Of a stretch of 10,651 nucleotides of DNA, positions 1 to 7,128 are shown in pieces; the first letter of the stretch is position 1, and every line of letters starts with the position of its first letter. The position numbers and the translations under genes are program-made. Where the stretch lies: contig JAEWIH010000071.1 of NCBI GenBank assembly GCA_023387245.1, positions 1 to 10,651 on the forward strand. The letters run 5' to 3'. Source of the stretch: Bacillota bacterium (GTDB lineage Bacteria > Bacillota_I > Bacilli_A > Erysipelotrichales > Erysipelotrichaceae). Below the pieces are notes generated by a model. It was not told where the DNA came from. It ran no database searches and was given only the letters and a program-made list of their open reading frames with translations.

Positions 1-1
1 A

Positions 2-52
2 TCTAGTTTTGATGATATTACTAATCAATTTAAGATTTGGACTGATTATTAA
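2..52 (+). CDS. 3' end of an unidentified upstream gene (partial)
   Basis: The frame starting at base 2 is open and gives 16 codons ending ...FKIWTDY and a TAA stop, 14 nt before a strong terminator hairpin. This position and the polar, acidic residues suit the C-terminus of a soluble protein. A second frame (bases 3-65) is also open, but it gives an almost wholly hydrophobic tail that runs up to the hairpin. The true frame is therefore not certain. Too little is present to name the product. Confidence 0.45.
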   Translation, partial: SSFDDITNQFKIWTDY

Positions 53-66
53 TTTATATTTATAAT

Positions 67-98
67 GCCTGATATATGTTTCGTATCAGGCTTTTTTT
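67..98 (+). terminator. Rho-independent terminator of the upstream gene
   Basis: A perfect 8-bp stem (GCCTGATA at 67-74 with TATCAGGC at 84-91) closes a 9-nt loop and is followed by seven T at 92-98. It insulates the RiPP operon from upstream transcription. The following 65 bases, up to the next promoter, are AT-rich and hold nothing else that I can recognise. Confidence 0.9.
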
Positions 99-163
99 AT
101 TATAAATATTTTTCAAAAAATGATAGAATTTTATATTAATTGTGAAAAAATTAGAAAAAGATA

Positions 164-192
164 TTGATTATCATTTTTAGTTAATTTATAAT
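164..192 (+). promoter_or_regulatory. Promoter of the RiPP operon
   Basis: TTGATT (164-169) and a consensus TATAAT (187-192) are separated by exactly 17 bp, the optimal sigma-A arrangement. Transcription should start near 198-200. That is almost on top of the ribosome binding site AAGGGAGGGG (199-208) of the precursor gene, so the 5' untranslated leader would be only about a dozen nucleotides. Confidence 0.75.
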
Positions 193-211
193 AATATCAA
201 GGGAGGGGATT

Positions 212-400
212 ATGAAAAAATATATAAGAAACTTCAATGACGAGAAAAATGATAATGTTTTGACTAGTGATGAAGGATCAGAAATGTTATTGTTTGATGC
301 TGAAGACATGTCGGATTTTGATGTGATTGAGGCTAAAAATATAGTTAATGGTACTTGTAGCTGCGGCTGTGGTGGTGCAGGAGCAGGAATGGGAGCATAA
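212..400 (+). CDS. Cys/Gly-rich RiPP precursor peptide
   Basis: This 62-residue peptide has the layout of a leader-core RiPP precursor and stands first in an operon with a SPASM radical SAM enzyme, a protease and an ABC exporter. Residues 1 to about 46 are acidic and lack cysteine, with a hydrophobic patch MLLF at 25-28 that could be a recognition element. The tail, residues 47-62, reads GTCSCGCG followed by GAGAGMGA. All three cysteines (49, 51, 53) alternate with Ser/Gly and precede a run made only of Gly, Ala and one Met. The start codon is set by the very strong site AAGGGAGGGG, 3 nt upstream of the ATG. By analogy with sactipeptides and ranthipeptides, the Cys would be thioether donors and the tail residues acceptors; this is inference. 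Gly54-Gly55 or the Asn-Gly at 46-47 are possible cleavage points. I do not recognise a named precursor family. Confidence 0.85.
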   Translation: MKKYIRNFNDEKNDNVLTSDEGSEMLLFDAEDMSDFDVIEAKNIVNGTCSCGCGGAGAGMGA

Positions 401-401
401 T

Positions 402-428
402 AAAGAGAGTGTTAATACATTCTCTTTT
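402..428 (+). promoter_or_regulatory. Intercistronic hairpin after the precursor gene
   Basis: An 11-bp stem (402-412 with 417-427, one G-U pair) closes a TAAT loop, beginning one base after the precursor stop codon. The T residues are mostly inside the stem and only one T follows, so it looks like a leaky terminator or an mRNA 3'-end stabiliser rather than a full terminator. Such elements commonly let a short precursor mRNA accumulate above the maturation genes. That function here is inferred. Confidence 0.7.
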
Positions 429-457
429 AAAGTATTTATGCTTATTTAAGGTTATTT

Positions 458-1702
458 ATGGTAATATTTTTTGATTCATTACATTATAAAATTAATAAAG
501 ATAACTATTCCATTTTTTATTTTCAATTTATTAATAAATTAATTAAATTAAAATATCATAATGCTTATTTATTATCTAAAATACTTGAATATAAATCACC
601 TTTAAATACTGATGATTTAGATTTAAGAATATACGGTTTTTCGTCTGAATATATTAATTCATTTGTTGATAAAATGATTGATTTAAAATTCTTTTTTAAA
701 ACGGAAGCTGAATTAGTAGAAAGTGATTTTAAGCACACTTATGAAAATCAATCTAATATTATTGGTTTGGAAAAGATATATTGTCATTTAACACAAAATT
801 GTAACTTATCCTGTAGTTATTGTTATAATATTAAAAATTTAAATTGTGATCGCAAAGAATTGACTACCGATGAGTGGATAAATAAAATAAAAGAATTTAT
901 TTTGATAGGTGTTAAAGAAATAGTTTTTACTGGCGGTGAAGTTTTGTTAAGAAAAGATTTAGTTGATATTTTAGAATCATTGAGAAAATATAATGTAAAA
1001 ACTATAATTTTGACTAATGGAACTTTGTTGGATACTAGCAGAGGTAAGAAAGTATTAGATTTAGTAGATAAAGTAATAGTGAGTTTAGATTCTATAAATC
1101 ATGATATGAATAATAAATATAGAGTAAATTCAATTAAATATAATATTTTAGAGACATTGAGTAATTTGCGTTTATACAGTGATAAAATATCAGTTAGAGC
1201 AGTTGTTGGTTATCATAATTTTCATGATGTAAGTAAATTAAAAGAATATGTTGTTAATGAATTGGGAATGAAGTTTATAAAATCTAAATTACTTCCTAAT
1301 AATATTAGAGAAATAGGTTCTTTTTGTCCTGATTTTAGTAATTTTTATGATAAAGATGAAATTGGTAATATTTCAAAATGTGGTGCATGTAAACAAATAT
1401 TTGCTATAGATTCAAATGGGGATTTTTATCCGTGCCAAACAATGATTAGACCAGAGATGAAAATAGGTAATATTATTAGTGATAATTTGAAGGACCTTGT
1501 TGTTAATGCTGATGATAAATTTGGATTTGGTGTTAGTGTCAATTATATTAAAGAATGCGATAAATGTGTTTTTAAATATATTTGTGGTGGCGGTTGTAAA
1601 GCATTAAATTATAATTTATACCATAAATTGAATTTAAAAAATGATTTTTTGTGTGATTTATATAAATATCAATGTATTAAAAAAATAGAAAATTTATATT
1701 AG
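458..1702 (+). CDS. Radical SAM/SPASM peptide maturase
   Basis: This 414-residue enzyme should install cross-links in the peptide encoded just upstream, using S-adenosylmethionine radical chemistry. The radical SAM cluster motif C-x3-C-x2-C is at Cys115, Cys119 and Cys122, followed by the SAM-binding segment FTGGEV (157-162), where the usual GGEP proline is Val. The C-terminus carries a complete seven-cysteine SPASM signature: Cys311-x9-Gly-x4-Cys326, then Cys367-x2-Cys370-x5-Cys376-x3-Cys380, then Cys399. This implies two auxiliary 4Fe-4S clusters. Residues 1 to about 95 precede the barrel and could be a winged-helix RiPP recognition element, but only its position and helix-rich composition suggest so. 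TAAGG at 447-451 serves as the ribosome binding site. Arginine is mostly AGA and isoleucine often ATA, unlike ppdK in the same window, which may mean low expression or a different origin. The substrate and the exact linkage are inferred. Confidence 0.93.
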   Translation: MVIFFDSLHYKINKDNYSIFYFQFINKLIKLKYHNAYLLSKILEYKSPLNTDDLDLRIYGFSSEYINSFVDKMIDLKFFFKTEAELVESDFKHTYENQSNIIGLEKIYCHLTQNCNLSCSYCYNIKNLNCDRKELTTDEWINKIKEFILIGVKEIVFTGGEVLLRKDLVDILESLRKYNVKTIILTNGTLLDTSRGKKVLDLVDKVIVSLDSINHDMNNKYRVNSIKYNILETLSNLRLYSDKISVRAVVGYHNFHDVSKLKEYVVNELGMKFIKSKLLPNNIREIGSFCPDFSNFYDKDEIGNISKCGACKQIFAIDSNGDFYPCQTMIRPEMKIGNIISDNLKDLVVNADDKFGFGVSVNYIKECDKCVFKYICGGGCKALNYNLYHKLNLKNDFLCDLYKYQCIKKIENLY

Positions 1703-1706
1703 GTTT

Positions 1707-2645
1707 ATGACTAAAAGACATATAAAGTATGAAAAATCGTTGTTTTCATTTTTAAATAAAATTGTTAGTAAAAACAATTTATTGACAGAAGACAAAGATG
1801 TAGAGATTTCTAAATATATAGTTAATAAATTAGGAATTAAATATTTAAATGTTTCAGAAAAATCGATGAATATATTGGATCTTTTTAATTTTCAATATTC
1901 TAAGTGTAATGATTATTATTTAATTGTTGAAGATAGTCCGAATTTTAAAAATATTCAGAAAAATGATTTAATATTGTCTGGTGTTATTGAGATTAATAGT
2001 ATGAGTTCTGAATTTTTTGCCGGAGAGTTTGAAATATTGAGGCAAGACATAAATGGCAATTTTGAAATATTTAATGAATTTTATCAAATTGATTTTAATA
2101 ATAGATCGGAAATAATGTTTAAAATTGATAATTATTTGTGTTTAAATGCTCAAAATTTTAATAATATGATGTATTTTGATAGAAAAAGAATTGAATCATA
2201 TTTAAAAAAAGGTATTAATCTTATTTTAGATTTTAAAAATAATGGAGGTAGCGACATAGATAATGTTATTTGTTGGTTGTCGGTTTTAGGCTTTTCTGCT
2301 ACATATACTATTGATAAAACGGCTAATTCTATTAATTTTAGAATTTTAAATAGTATTTATAATAACAAATATTTTATATTGTGTAATTCTGCTACTGCTA
2401 GTTCAGCAGAGGTTTTTATAAATTGTTTGCAGAGATATGGTGATTGTGTTGTTATTGGAACGGAAACTTATGGTAAGAATGTTGCTTGTGTTAGTAAATG
2501 TTATTATAATACGAAATTGAGTATTCCGATTTATAATATTAAAGTTGACAATATTATTTCAAAAGTGGATATTGATTTATATTGTGATGATATTGATAAT
2601 TATAGTTTTGATAATGTAATTGCATTAATTAATGATAAGGAGTAA
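1707..2645 (+). CDS. S41-family (C-terminal processing type) serine peptidase, probable leader peptidase
   Basis: The 312-residue protein carries the hallmarks of the S41/Ctp fold. They are a DFKNNGG strand-loop (175-181), a nucleophile segment TASSAE with Ser232 aligned to the catalytic serine of Prc/CtpA, and the lysine motif TETYGK with Lys257, 25 residues later as in Prc. The Gln that completes the triad in some Ctp proteases (Lys+4) is Cys261 here. Residues about 75-130 (containing QKNDLILSGV) may be a degenerate PDZ domain. Unlike ordinary Ctp proteases it has no signal peptide or membrane anchor; the N-terminus is charged (MTKRHIKYEK), so it probably acts in the cytoplasm. The start lies 4 nt after the maturase stop with only a weak AGG nearby, which suggests translational coupling. 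As the transporter lacks a peptidase domain, this is the best candidate for leader removal. The family call is firm and the role is inferred. Confidence 0.88.
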   Translation: MTKRHIKYEKSLFSFLNKIVSKNNLLTEDKDVEISKYIVNKLGIKYLNVSEKSMNILDLFNFQYSKCNDYYLIVEDSPNFKNIQKNDLILSGVIEINSMSSEFFAGEFEILRQDINGNFEIFNEFYQIDFNNRSEIMFKIDNYLCLNAQNFNNMMYFDRKRIESYLKKGINLILDFKNNGGSDIDNVICWLSVLGFSATYTIDKTANSINFRILNSIYNNKYFILCNSATASSAEVFINCLQRYGDCVVIGTETYGKNVACVSKCYYNTKLSIPIYNIKVDNIISKVDIDLYCDDIDNYSFDNVIALINDKE

Positions 2646-2649
2646 TAAA

Positions 2650-4254
2650 ATGCATAAGAAATTGGGTAGTGTATTAAATGGTAATTGGTTTTTGCAGATA
2701 TTAGTAATACTGCTGACTATTGTTCAAGTAGTGTGTGTTTTTTGTTTGCCGATATATGTTAATCATTTATTAAATAATATTGATAAGTATGATGTTTTTA
2801 ATTTGATTTTATTGTTTTTAGTATTTGCTGTGTGTTTATTGATTTTTAATGTTTTTTTAAATTATGTTAAAAAGAAATTTAAAATTTATTTTAAAATAAA
2901 ATTAAATGAAGACTTATATTATAAATTGTTTAGAGTTAGATATGATGTTTTAAATAAAAAGGGTATGTCATATTATACAGAGTATATTAATAATGTAGTA
3001 ACAAATATTAGTAATTATTTTACTGATGCTATTCCTGGTATTATTGCTACAGTTTTAATGTTATTTGTTTGTATAGTTATTATTGGACTGTATAATTTTT
3101 ACTTAACATTTTTATTATTTTTATTAGTATTTTTACAATATAATATTTTTAAACATATTAATAAACGTTTATCGTTTAAGTGTCAAAGATTGTCTAGTGT
3201 ATGTTCTACGGGGTTTAGTTATATATTATCAGCAGTTGAAAATTTAGAATTTTTAAAATCTCGTAGTCATCATAAATCTTTAATGAGATTATTATATCCT
3301 AAAATTAGTGAAATGCATGATGTAACTGAAGATGTTAATAATTATGCTGCTAATATGTGTAGTATTTATGCGATTTTTGTTAATTTTGTTCAATATTTTA
3401 TGTTGTTATATTTTGGATATTTAGTTTTAATTGGTCAATTAGGTGTTTCTAATTTTGTTTTTGTATCAATTATTTTAAGTGTTTTCTTTGATAATTTATC
3501 GGCAGTTTCTTCAATTTCTTTAAAATCGAGTGAAGCTTCTGCTTCTTGGAAATTTGTTGATGAAGAAATTCTGGAACTAATGGAAAGAGATAATGGTGTT
3601 GAATTGTGTGAAGTAACAAGACTTGATTTTGTTGATGGAGTTTTGGGTTATGATGATTTAGTTTTGGCTGATAATATTAATTTAAGTGCTAAAAAGGGTG
3701 ATGTTGTTTTTATTAAAGGTGAAACTGGTACTGGTAAATCGTCTTTGGTTAAGTGTTTGTTAGGATTAAAGGATATGGCTGGTTTAAAACTAAATGGACA
3801 GGATTATGTTGATTATAGTTTAGAAAGTATTCGTAGTCATATTGCGTATGTATCACAAAATTTTTTATTATTGGATGATAGTCTGTTGAATAATATTTTA
3901 ATGGGTGAAGAGTTAAGTGTTGATAATGTTTTGAAATTTAATTTCTTTAATAAATTTGTGGATAATGGTCATATTGCTAATATCGAGATTGTTAATAAGG
4001 GTAATAATTTATCTGGAGGAGATAAGCAAAAAATTATTTTGGCTAGAACTTTAATTAAAGATTATGATTTATTAATTTTAGATGAGGTTACTAGTTCAAT
4101 GGATAAAGAAACTGAAAAAATTGTATTTGATGAAATTTTTAGTCGTCGTCAAAATTTAATAACTATTATCATTTCTCATGATGATCATTTAATGGCATAT
4201 GCTAATAAAGTTTGGCAATTGGCAGATAAAAAATTTAGGGAGATTATTAATTAA
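2650..4254 (+). CDS. ABC exporter (fused membrane and ATPase domains) for the modified peptide
   Basis: This 534-residue half-transporter should work as a homodimer in the cytoplasmic membrane and export the mature or modified peptide. Roughly six hydrophobic segments lie at about 12-37, 48-71, 130-150, 150-166, 239-262 and 266-284. The C-terminal ATPase has a Walker A GETGTGKS (357-364), Q-loop Gln403, signature LSGGD (454-458), Walker B LLILDE (474-479) and switch His510. There is no C39 peptidase domain, so it cannot cleave the leader itself. I chose the ATG at 2650 because AAGGAG (2637-2642) lies 7 nt before it; an in-frame ATG at 2632 has no such site and would overlap the peptidase gene. 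It ends the RiPP operon, and no terminator of its own follows. Self-protection by export is possible, as no immunity gene is seen. Confidence 0.93.
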   Translation: MHKKLGSVLNGNWFLQILVILLTIVQVVCVFCLPIYVNHLLNNIDKYDVFNLILLFLVFAVCLLIFNVFLNYVKKKFKIYFKIKLNEDLYYKLFRVRYDVLNKKGMSYYTEYINNVVTNISNYFTDAIPGIIATVLMLFVCIVIIGLYNFYLTFLLFLLVFLQYNIFKHINKRLSFKCQRLSSVCSTGFSYILSAVENLEFLKSRSHHKSLMRLLYPKISEMHDVTEDVNNYAANMCSIYAIFVNFVQYFMLLYFGYLVLIGQLGVSNFVFVSIILSVFFDNLSAVSSISLKSSEASASWKFVDEEILELMERDNGVELCEVTRLDFVDGVLGYDDLVLADNINLSAKKGDVVFIKGETGTGKSSLVKCLLGLKDMAGLKLNGQDYVDYSLESIRSHIAYVSQNFLLLDDSLLNNILMGEELSVDNVLKFNFFNKFVDNGHIANIEIVNKGNNLSGGDKQKIILARTLIKDYDLLILDEVTSSMDKETEKIVFDEIFSRRQNLITIIISHDDHLMAYANKVWQLADKKFREIIN

Positions 4255-4262
4255 TTTAAAGT

Positions 4263-4292
4263 TTGATATTTGTTAATGGTTTATGCTATAAT
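4263..4292 (+). promoter_or_regulatory. Promoter of the valS T-box transcript
   Basis: TTGATA (4263-4268) and TATAAT (4287-4292) are 18 bp apart, and TG at 4284-4285 makes an extended -10 element. The start would be near 4298-4300, just before T-box stem I. It begins 8 nt after the exporter stop codon. Confidence 0.85.
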
Positions 4293-4299
4293 CATTACA

Positions 4300-4510
4300 A
4301 GTCATATAACTCGAGGAGTAGTTATGATTTATTTTTCAGGGACATGATGGTTGGTGTGAATCATGATTTAATCTTAATGAAGGTAGCGAGTTTGATACAG
4401 ATATGAATGTTTAGTAGTATTTGTCGTTGGTGGCGTTAACACATTTGAGAAAAAATCTAGGTGGTACCATGCATATATGCATCCTTGGGATCACCTTTTA
4501 TTTTGTTATT
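4300..4510 (+). ncRNA. T-box riboswitch, valine specific (valS leader)
   Basis: This leader senses uncharged tRNA-Val. The base of stem I is AACTCG (4308-4313) with CGAGTT (4387-4392). Above it is an internal loop with AGTA (4317-4320) opposite GAA (4379-4381), the usual loop-E type motif. The specifier codon GTA (4383-4385, valine) sits in this loop. The stem I tip is CATGAT (4343-4348) with ATCATG (4360-4365). The antiterminator has AGG (4459-4461) with CCT (4483-4485), the conserved 7-nt bulge TGGTACC (4462-4468), and an ATGCAT/ATGCAT upper helix. TGGT in the bulge complements the ACCA end expected for tRNA-Val. The downstream gene is valS, which agrees with the specifier. The pairings were worked out by eye. 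Confidence 0.93.
4459..4504 (+). terminator. Regulated terminator of the T-box leader
   Basis: AGGTGGT (4459-4465) can pair with ATCACCT (4490-4496), one pair being G-U, with further inner pairing, followed by TTTTATTTT. It uses the same AGG as the antiterminator, so the two folds exclude each other as expected for a T-box. It is also the first hairpin-plus-T-run terminator downstream of the RiPP operon. Confidence 0.75.
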
Positions 4511-4521
4511 AGGAGGTAATT

Positions 4522-7128
4522 ATGGCATTGTCTAATAAATATAATCATTTAGAGATTGAAAAAAAATATTATGATCAATGGATTAAAAATGAATATTTTG
4601 TTGCTAAAAAAAATGATAAACAACCATTTTCGATTGTTATTCCACCTCCAAATGTTACTGGAAAATTACATTTAGGTCATTCGTGGGATAATACTTTACA
4701 AGATATACTAGCTCGTTATCAGCGTCTATTAGGTAAAGATGTATTATATTTACCTGGGATGGATCATGCCGGTATAGCTACTCAGGCTAAAATTGATGCT
4801 CGTTTAAAAGAACAAGGTATTTCTCGTCATGATATTGGTCGCGAAAAGTTTTTGGAACACGCATGGAATTGGAAAGAAGAATATGCGGATACTATTTGTA
4901 AACAATGGGCCAAAATGGGACTTTCTTTAGATTATAGTCGTTTGCGTTTTACTTTAGACCAAGGTTTAAATGATGCTGTTAATGAAGTATTTGTTACATT
5001 ATATAATGAGGGATTAATTTTTCAAGGTGATCGGATTATTAACTGGGATCCTGTTGCTCAAACGGCTTTGAGTAATATTGAAGTTATTTATAAAGAAGTT
5101 GAAGGTAATTTTTGGACATTTAAATATCCATTAGTTGATAGTGATTCATTTTTATTAGTTGCGACAACTAGACCAGAAACGATGTTTGGAGATGTTTGTG
5201 TAGTTGTTCATCCTCTTGATTCTAGATATGCTCATTTAATTGGCAAAAAAGTTATTAATCCGGCTAACATGCAAGAAATACCAATTATTGGAGATGAATA
5301 TATAGATATTGAGTTTGGTACTGGGGCTATGAAATGTACACCTGCTCATGACCCAAATGATTTTAAACTAGGATTAAAATATAATTTAGAAATGCCTATT
5401 TGTATGAATCCAGATGGTACTATGAATGAGTTGGCTAATGAATATAATGGATTAGATCGTTTTGAATGTCGTAAACAATTAGTAGCTAAACTTGAAAAAA
5501 ATGGTTATTTAGAAAAAGTTGAAAAACATATTCATCAAGTAGGTCATAGTGAAAGAACCGATTGTATCGTAGAACCATATTTATCTAGACAATGGTTTGT
5601 TAAAATGGAACCATTGGCTAAAGATGTATTGGATAATCAAAAAAACGTTGATACTAAAATTAATTTTTATCCACCACGTTTTGAAAAGATTTTTTGTGAT
5701 TGGTTGGAAAATATTGAAGATTGGTGTATATCTAGACAATTATGGTGGGGCCATCGAATTCCGGCTTATACTCATAAAGTTACTAAGGAACTGCTTGTTA
5801 GTAAAACACCACCTACAGATATTGAAAATTGGGAACAAGATCCCGATGTTTTAGATACGTGGTTTTCTAGCGCATTGTGGCCATTTTCGACATTAGGTTG
5901 GCCGAATTCATCTAGTTTAGATTTAGAACGTTACTATCCAACAGATGTATTAGTAACTGGTTATGATATTATTTTGTTTTGGGTTGTTAGGATGGCTTTT
6001 CAAGCTCGTCATTTTACTAAAAATATTCCTTTTAAAGATGTTTTAATTCATGGTTTGATTAGGGCAGAAGATGGTAGAAAAATGTCGAAATCTTATGGTA
6101 ATGGAGTTGATCCTATTGATGTTATCGAACAATATGGTGTTGATGCTTTGCGTTATTTTTTAGTAACAAATTCGACACCGGGTTTAGATTTAAGATATTC
6201 AAAGACAAAAGTAGAAGCTGCTTGGAATTTTATTAATAAAATTTATCAGTCGGCACGTTTTGTATCTTTATATTTGCCATAAGATTTTGATTGTAAAAAC
6301 ATTAAATTAAATAATTTATCTTTATATGATCATTGGATTTTAACAAAATTGAAAAAAGTTTTAAAAGAAGTTGAATTAAACATGGGACAATATGAATTTG
6401 TTAATGTTGGTACTTGTTTAGAAAATTTTATTTGGAATGACTTTTGTAGTTGGTATATCGAACTTTCAAAATCGTCTTTAGCTAGTGATGATAGCAATGT
6501 TTTAAATGCTACTTATAATACTTTATATGTGGTTTTAATTAGTATTATTAAAATGTTATCTCCATTTATGCCTTTTGTTTGTGAAGAGATTTATTTATCT
6601 TTACCACATATTTATGAGTCAGTTAATTTAGAATCTTGGCCTCAAATTGATTATGTTGAAGATGAAGAGGCTATGAATAGTGTTGAACAATTGTTAGAAA
6701 TTATTAGTGCTATTCGCGAAACAAGAGTAGCATATAATTTAAAACCTTCTTTAGATTTAGCTGGTTGTATTTTTGATAGTGATAATAATCTATTAGAATT
6801 AAATAGTTTATTTAAATCAAGTTTACTAAAGATGTCTCACTTAATTATAGAGGATTTTGATGGGGAGAGAATGATTGTGCCACTAAAATTTGGTAGTTTA
6901 CATTTATTAAAATCACAATTAATTGATATTGAAGTTGAAAAGCAACGGTTATTGAAACAGAAACAACATTTTGAAAATGAAGTTGATCGCTGTTTAAAAT
7001 TGTTATCAAATCCTAATTTTATTAATAAAGCTGCTATAGATAAGGTTAATAGCGAAAAATTAAAATTAGATCAAAATCAGCAACAATTAAAATTGATTTT
7101 AGATCAATTATCTAATTTAGATGATTAA
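4522..7128 (+). pseudogene. valS: Valyl-tRNA synthetase, interrupted by one in-frame TAA
   Basis: The product charges tRNA-Val with valine in the cytoplasm. Residues 1-586 hold the class I catalytic core: [13 protein letters not shown] (HLGH at 50-53), an editing domain at about 190-340 with [21 protein letters not shown], and KMSKS at 520-524. Codon 587 (6280-6282) is TAA. The same frame then continues without a break for another 281 codons, with SLYDHWILTKL, the anticodon-binding domain (FIWNDFCSWYIELSK) and the C-terminal coiled-coil arm ending SNLDD. The total of about 868 residues is normal for bacterial ValRS, so nothing else is missing. The start follows AGGAGGT (4511-4517). No ribosome binding site precedes the TTG at 6349 or other restart codons. 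The gene is normally essential and its T-box is intact, so a sequencing error or a recent G/C/A-to-T change is the likeliest cause. A split enzyme or readthrough remains possible. Confidence 0.93.
6280..6282 (+). other. In-frame TAA stop inside valS
   Basis: The context is CCA TAA GAT. Removing the stop joins LYLP to DFDCKN in the same frame, in the variable linker between the catalytic and anticodon-binding domains. GAA, CAA or AAA would each become TAA by one base change. Other genes here end in TAA, so reassignment of TAA can be excluded. Confidence 0.9.

Follow-up and report, generated by a model that had tools for sequence, protein, structure and literature searches.

The window analysed here is a 10,651-nucleotide (nt) stretch of DNA from a bacterium of the Erysipelotrichaceae (contig JAEWIH010000071.1, assembly GCA_023387245.1), with a GC content of 27.8%. 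Between positions 212 and 4254 it carries four plus-strand genes, head to tail, that encode a short peptide, a radical SAM enzyme with a SPASM domain, an S41 serine protease, and an ATP-binding cassette (ABC) exporter. Judged from its sequence, this stretch reads as a real and compact operon for a ribosomally synthesized and post-translationally modified peptide (RiPP); what appears to be new in it is the type of protease and a compressed three-cysteine core, and these two features set it apart as a variant. Probably, the SPASM enzyme cross-links the 62-residue cysteine peptide, the S41 protease cuts off the leader inside the cell, and the exporter, which has no peptidase part, secretes the product.

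The frames lie at 212–400 (62 residues), 458–1702 (414 residues), 1707–2645 (312 residues), and 2632–4254 (540 residues), with spacings of 57 nt, 4 nt, and, when the exporter start is taken at 2632, an overlap of 14 nt. The initial annotation had claimed four genes packed at spacings of at most about 60 nt, and the packing is present as described. The exporter start at 2650 (534 residues) looks better: AAGGAG stands at 2637–2642, and the gap to the protease gene then becomes 4 nt. The upstream terminator proposed in the same annotation was detected at 67–91 on the plus strand, as a 9-pair stem with 4 GC pairs and a T-run, and would serve the upstream gene and mark the operon boundary; positions 1–4700 hold 3 terminator-like sites versus 0.4 ± 0.6 in shuffles. 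The single promoter proposed there fared less well. A TTGATT-N17-TATAAT element at 164–192 (plus strand) agrees with the consensus at 10 of 12 positions, but it is a consensus match only, and the scan returned 60 such sites versus 43.8 ± 5.7 in shuffled sequence, many being expected in such AT-rich DNA. None of the six larger frames checked contained an in-frame TGA.

The precursor gene (212–400, plus strand) is preceded by GGGAGGGG, a ribosome-binding-site-like sequence at 201–208. The encoded peptide has an acidic leader and ends in TCSCGCGGAGAGMGA; Cys49, Cys51, and Cys53 lie near the C terminus, ahead of the tail GAGAGMGA, and the core-bearing end NGTCSCGCGGAGAGMGA (347–397) is the likely core, with a predicted cleavage point. 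The gene sits beside that of a radical SAM/SPASM maturase, which is the general mark of a radical-SAM RiPP system. Pfam gave no match for the peptide, and its sole NCBIfam match was to the streptosactin precursor StsA over residues 48–61, sub-threshold at 15.7 bits (cut-off 42). A search of a 5.8-billion-protein set, in which shared exact 5-residue words were required, returned 2 proteins among 2 candidates, namely the precursor itself and a protein (P0002) that is 98% identical, is present on 3 contigs, may be from the same species as the window, and has one difference, K42R, outside the core. Among 108 loci (1.46 Mb), six short stop-to-stop frames carried a C-small-C-small-C pattern in their last 40 residues, none with a comparable Gly/Ala/Met tail. 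Between the precursor and maturase genes lies an 11-pair hairpin (402–427, plus strand), a feature absent from the initial annotation; the fold of 398–457 has an energy of −13.9 kcal/mol (z −3.8), and 0 of 200 shuffles folded as well. RiPP operons usually keep the ratio of precursor to enzyme high, and the hairpin is likely a transcript-dosage element that would keep precursor message above enzyme message.

The maturase (458–1702, plus strand) matched the Pfam families Radical_SAM (1.9e-20) and SPASM (9.9e-6). We aligned it with 10 relatives; left out were the short radical SAM genes of three plasmid cassettes described below (L101–L103), two further frames of L085, L081, and L098, the last being the same place as L082. 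The CxxxCxxC motif occupies residues 115–122 (800–823), and all 11 aligned enzymes, the window's included, have Cys115, Cys119, and Cys122. Each of the seven SPASM cysteines (308, 326, 367, 370, 376, 380, and 399; 1379–1654) is present in 10 or 11 of the 11. Their spacing, C308-x12-G-x4-C326 ... C367-x2-C370-x5-C376-x3-C380-x18-C399, resembles the RumMC pattern given in the excerpted text of PMC8172795. The enzyme has the two features of a sactipeptide maturase, a CxxxCxxC motif and a SPASM or twitch domain bearing auxiliary cluster cysteines. The best of the 89 NCBIfam models matched was the streptosactin maturase StsB (114.9 bits, cut-off 625), followed by CbpB (93.1) and ScmE (91.2); none of the three comes anywhere near its cut-off. 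The initial annotation had recognized no named class, and this held up: the precursor exceeded no NCBIfam cut-off and the maturase none of those of the 25 models listed. A match to the antiviral viperin model pVip of PADLOC (80.2 bits) was set aside given the SPASM domain and the peptide gene.

These scores bear on the bond that is made. Cα thioethers are the likely products of the maturase, judging by its nearest model, StsB, which nevertheless scores far under its cut-off. The enzyme could instead form a ranthipeptide-type β- or γ-thioether, or another C–C or C–X link, with the downstream logic of the operon the same; we regard this as unlikely. Among enzymes of solved structure, CteB (5wgg; 5.1e-16, the SPASM part giving the best stretch) is nearest in sequence; it is a ranthipeptide maturase according to the excerpts of PMC10352776, but those of PMC8172795 name it a sactisynthase. 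The ranthipeptide and SCIFF models are also represented among the matches, with PapB at 78.8 bits (cut-off 340) and the SCIFF maturase at 63.2 bits (cut-off 425), neither high enough for assignment to those groups, whereas the top score belongs to a sactipeptide maturase. Moreover, nothing but Gly, Ala, and Met follows the cysteines; because Gly has no β carbon and Ala no γ carbon, the tail offers few sites for a β or γ bridge.

The protease (1707–2645, plus strand) belongs to a different family from those of the plasmid cassettes described below. It matched Peptidase_S41 (PF03572) in Pfam at 1.3e-9, and its family matches (nine NCBIfam, one Pfam) are to S41 only, not to the S8 family of QhpE, the leader protease of the quinohemoprotein amine dehydrogenase (qhp) operon. 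For alignment we used the CtpA frames from 11 of the 12 loci L086–L097, leaving out L090. The predicted catalytic residues, Ser232 (2400–2402) and Lys257 (2475–2477), are invariant in 12 of 12 aligned sequences, the window's included, and stand in (T/S)ASxxE and TYGK contexts, which we take to be those of the S41 Ser-Lys dyad. With hhalign, residues 61–305 aligned to the 11 CtpA-like proteins at a probability of 97.5. The peak hydropathy near the N terminus is 0.42, versus 2.6–3.0 in the three membrane-segment-bearing CtpA-like proteins measured; the protein has neither a signal or membrane segment nor a C-terminal tail domain, and so differs from the anchored CtpA proteins of the order's genomes. 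Because both the N-terminal anchor and the C-terminal tail domain are absent, the protease is likely cytoplasmic. Used as a query against 315 genomes of the order, it found a match in 120 at E ≤ 1e-4. All but one of these 120 matches fell between residues 110 and 276 (the other begins at 66), and 116 of the matched frames were of at least 430 residues; the four shorter frames lie at contig ends, as judged by coordinates (the contig extent was seen for two of them).

The exporter (2650–4254, plus strand, open from 2632) combines membrane and ATPase domains in one chain, with Pfam matches to ABC_tran (1.9e-22) and ABC_membrane (3.3e-11) and six hydrophobic segments in the membrane domain. Its best NCBIfam model is a peptidase-domain transporter, but that model is matched only from profile position 140, from which we conclude that the C39 peptidase part is missing. 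Export with removal of a double-glycine leader was dropped as a candidate in view of the missing C39 domain. Taken together, the NCBIfam and Pfam domains, the alignments, and the hydropathy support the earlier description of the locus as a minimal cassette for a radical-SAM RiPP, whose S41 protease looks cytoplasmic.

Proteins whose C termini are small and non-polar are the targets of S41/CtpA enzymes, and the precursor's own end, GAGAGMGA, fits this preference. The S41 protease might accordingly work on the free C terminus, trimming the tail or destroying un-cross-linked precursor as quality control, while the leader is removed elsewhere; the complete S41 core that makes up the catalytic half is compatible with such a role. 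We consider it improbable, to about the same degree as the alternative bond chemistry. The exporter has no C39 domain, and the operon encodes no other protease. Furthermore, in each of the three plasmid cassettes opened, the lone annotated protease lies directly 5′ of the exporter genes, as it does here, and resembles the leader protease QhpE.

In the mechanism that we favor, with leader removal assigned to the S41 protease, the maturase would join Cys49, Cys51, and Cys53 to α carbons in the Gly/Ala/Met tail. The spacing of C-x-C-x-C followed by A-x-A-x-M would permit a nested ladder of 53–56, 51–58, and 49–60 links, or alternatively a streptosactin-like i to i+3 pattern. The S41 protease would then cut off the leader in the cytoplasm, in the slot of QhpE-type S8 proteases, and the cleaved product would leave through the peptidase-less exporter, perhaps to act as a small antimicrobial or signal peptide. 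A reading as a metallophore was considered and dropped, as no search was aimed at it and there was no evidence for it. A bolder proposal, which we find possible but doubtful, is that the operon represents the first RiPP type in which a de-secreted protease of the CtpA fold (S41), convergently replacing QhpE-type S8 enzymes, cuts the leader inside the cell, and in which the product has three nested Cα thioethers within about 14 residues, C-x-C-x-C facing A-x-A-x-M. It is very unlikely that the 62-residue frame is not the substrate, or that the four genes came together by chance or have decayed. Plus-strand ATG frames of at least 62 codons did appear when 93–457 was shuffled by dinucleotides (29 of 5000 shuffles), and the protein-collection search found no divergent homologue of the precursor. 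Against this, the frame follows a ribosome site that is strong, recurs as a 98% identical protein on other contigs, and has a C-terminal cysteine pattern directly 5′ of a peptide-maturase gene, and the active sites of maturase and protease are intact.

Several observations weigh against the operon reading as a whole. The same four-gene order occurred in no relative found, which leaves co-inheritance of the genes conjectural. Neither StsB nor StsA comes near its cut-off, the scores being too low for membership in the streptosactin family. The operon itself includes no regulator or immunity gene. A single-sequence structure model of the S41 protease was poor (pLDDT 36.8). The stand-alone PDZ score on the protease was 15.4, when the best of 100 shuffles reached 22.9; a PDZ domain that looked right by eye is not claimed, since shuffles were not beaten. 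Likewise, a profile comparison of the maturase with the L101–L103 enzymes for a RiPP recognition element scored 14.6, inside the range of 50 shuffles (best 16.9); the N-terminal 100 residues have no Pfam match, and the element, plausible there by eye, is not claimed either. Finally, the comparison cassettes are 3 opened of 255 plasmid records matching the maturase, and hence are chosen examples.

The search for relatives covered about 820 different genomes with the maturase, in overlapping sets, and yielded no close relative of it. Matches were found in 4 of the 315 genomes of the order (E ≤ 1e-15), and inspection of three of these loci by eye revealed no S41 gene next to the match. Sets of 395 genomes of the class and 392 of the phylum (E ≤ 1e-18) gave one match each, in the same genome as in the order; two further orders gave none (0 of 43 and 0 of 90 genomes), and small sets gave one match in five genomes (E ≤ 1e-6) and one in three (E ≤ 1e-10). 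Scans of genome contigs (one genome each for 84,980 species) with the maturase, and of viral contigs with the maturase, protease, and exporter, gave no confirmed relative, such single-protein scans detecting close relatives only. Clostridia were covered by this close-relative scan of genome contigs and by plasmid records only. Among plasmid records, 255 matched the maturase, none covering 80% of it, 9 matched the protease, and 1198 matched the exporter, one of which (L100) covered 80%; no radical SAM or S41 gene was seen by eye in L100. Eight phage records matched the maturase. The operon appears to be either rare or from an unsampled lineage. In the full-text collection searched, judged by listings, no paper paired an S41 protease with radical SAM RiPPs; subscription papers fall mostly outside it, hence this is weak evidence of novelty. 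In PMC10352776, for which 12 of 22 places were listed, the listed occurrences of ‘S41’ were fragments of digital object identifiers. Nor did a full-text search return any paper that joins Erysipelotrich, radical SAM, and RiPP.

Downstream of the operon lie a T-box leader (4296–4489, plus strand; RF00230, 95.9 bits, gathering threshold 93), which marks its boundary, then valS, a pyruvate phosphate dikinase gene (by NCBIfam), and an S1-domain gene; a NifU-like gene lies on the minus strand. For valS, the nearest relatives come from metagenome-assembled genomes of Erysipelotrichales (73.4% identity to locus L001 and 66.6–69.1% to L002–L005), and the order of valS and dikinase gene is kept in L001, so that this order is the likely source of the contig by sequence as well. 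The valS gene (4522–7128) has an in-frame TAA at 6280–6282 amid conserved sequence, and the frame resumes right after it with homology to the valS C terminus; none of the five relatives L001–L005 has a stop at this site. The stop may be a sequencing error, may mark this gene as a decaying copy alongside a second valS, or may be something more unusual.

Two other radical SAM loci came to light. A further radical SAM peptide cassette, on the minus strand of L106 (3099–8224; genome G032, of the order of L001), encodes a 406-residue maturase, a 121-residue protein with no Pfam match, and a short peptide (frame 6463–6582) ending in NKAGCAAVGVVVCASIGYNTKNWSA; it also has a 558-residue ABC-transporter-like frame and an ABC ATPase/permease-like pair, named by eye, of which the pair could give immunity. 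No S41 gene was seen in L106. In L084 (1447–4055, minus strand; genome G046), an M42 peptidase gene (6.4e-50) is followed after about 345 nt by a SPASM-like radical SAM gene (439 residues); here a peptide maturase may be accompanied by yet another type of protease.

If the reading of the window operon is right, radical-SAM peptide biosynthesis has drawn on a second protease fold for one and the same step, and the slot for a cytoplasmic leader protease 5′ of a peptidase-less exporter is modular. The system would also offer a very small three-bridge core for study, in a four-gene cassette small enough to transfer whole to a laboratory strain.

Among known systems, streptosactin (StsA/StsB; GggA/GggB in a review) is akin in that StsB is the top-scoring curated maturase for the window enzyme. 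According to the excerpts of PMC8172795, streptosactin has links from Cys to Ser and Gly in a 14-residue product, with a protease gene of its own; the Cys31–Gly34 link shows that the chemistry permits a bridge to Gly at i to i+3 spacing. The figure legend in those excerpts names a precursor, a radical SAM enzyme, a protease, and regulators, but no exporter, in contrast to the window, and two unnested rings differ from the window's three cysteines spaced two residues apart. The suisactin (QMP) sactipeptides, as described in part of PMC13361665, form sactionine rings of very small size, in which a single residue intervenes. This ring size is relevant to the C-x-C-x-C core here, as a comparison by description only, with no suisactin sequence compared; the window precursor differs in having no QMP motif.

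Three plasmid cassettes of Paraclostridium sordellii and Clostridioides difficile (L101–L103) are like the window operon in that radical SAM genes, one serine protease gene, and one or two genes for ABC transporters follow one another, the transporter genes coming directly after the protease gene. They differ in having two or three radical SAM genes each and a protease of the S8 family, and their maturases are 21–23% identical to that of the window. The L101 and L103 exporters are 26–27% identical to the window exporter over the ATPase half. QhpE was the best match of all three S8 proteases (90.6, 81.2, and 79.1 bits; the cut-off of 165 was not reached), and all three exporters lack a peptidase part, peptidase-bearing models being matched from profile positions 136–155. 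Short cysteine peptides lie inside the L101 and L103 cassettes, and a small frame of L102 lies about 2.8 kb upstream of the first radical SAM gene; these three small peptides had no NCBIfam match at E ≤ 0.01 and no visible similarity to the window precursor. In L101, an agrB-like gene and one for a cyclic lactone autoinducer peptide (4756–5485) precede the radical SAM cassette by about 300 nt, which suggests quorum control of that cassette. As in the qhp operon, S8 proteases likely hold the leader-removal slot in these clostridial plasmid cassettes.

The qhp operon itself (qhpC-D-E-F) shares with the window operon a leader-bearing cysteine peptide, a radical SAM thioether enzyme, a cytoplasmic serine protease, and an ABC transporter. 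As set out in the excerpts of PMC7876137, QhpD forms three Cys thioethers in QhpC, QhpE takes the leader off in the cytoplasm, and the ABC transporter QhpF then translocates the peptide. QhpC differs from the window precursor in being an enzyme subunit with Cys-to-Asp/Glu links, the qhp protease is S8 where that of the window is S41, and no other qhp gene was seen in the window. By analogy, we infer that the order of events in the window operon would be that of the qhp operon, with the S41 protease in the slot of QhpE.

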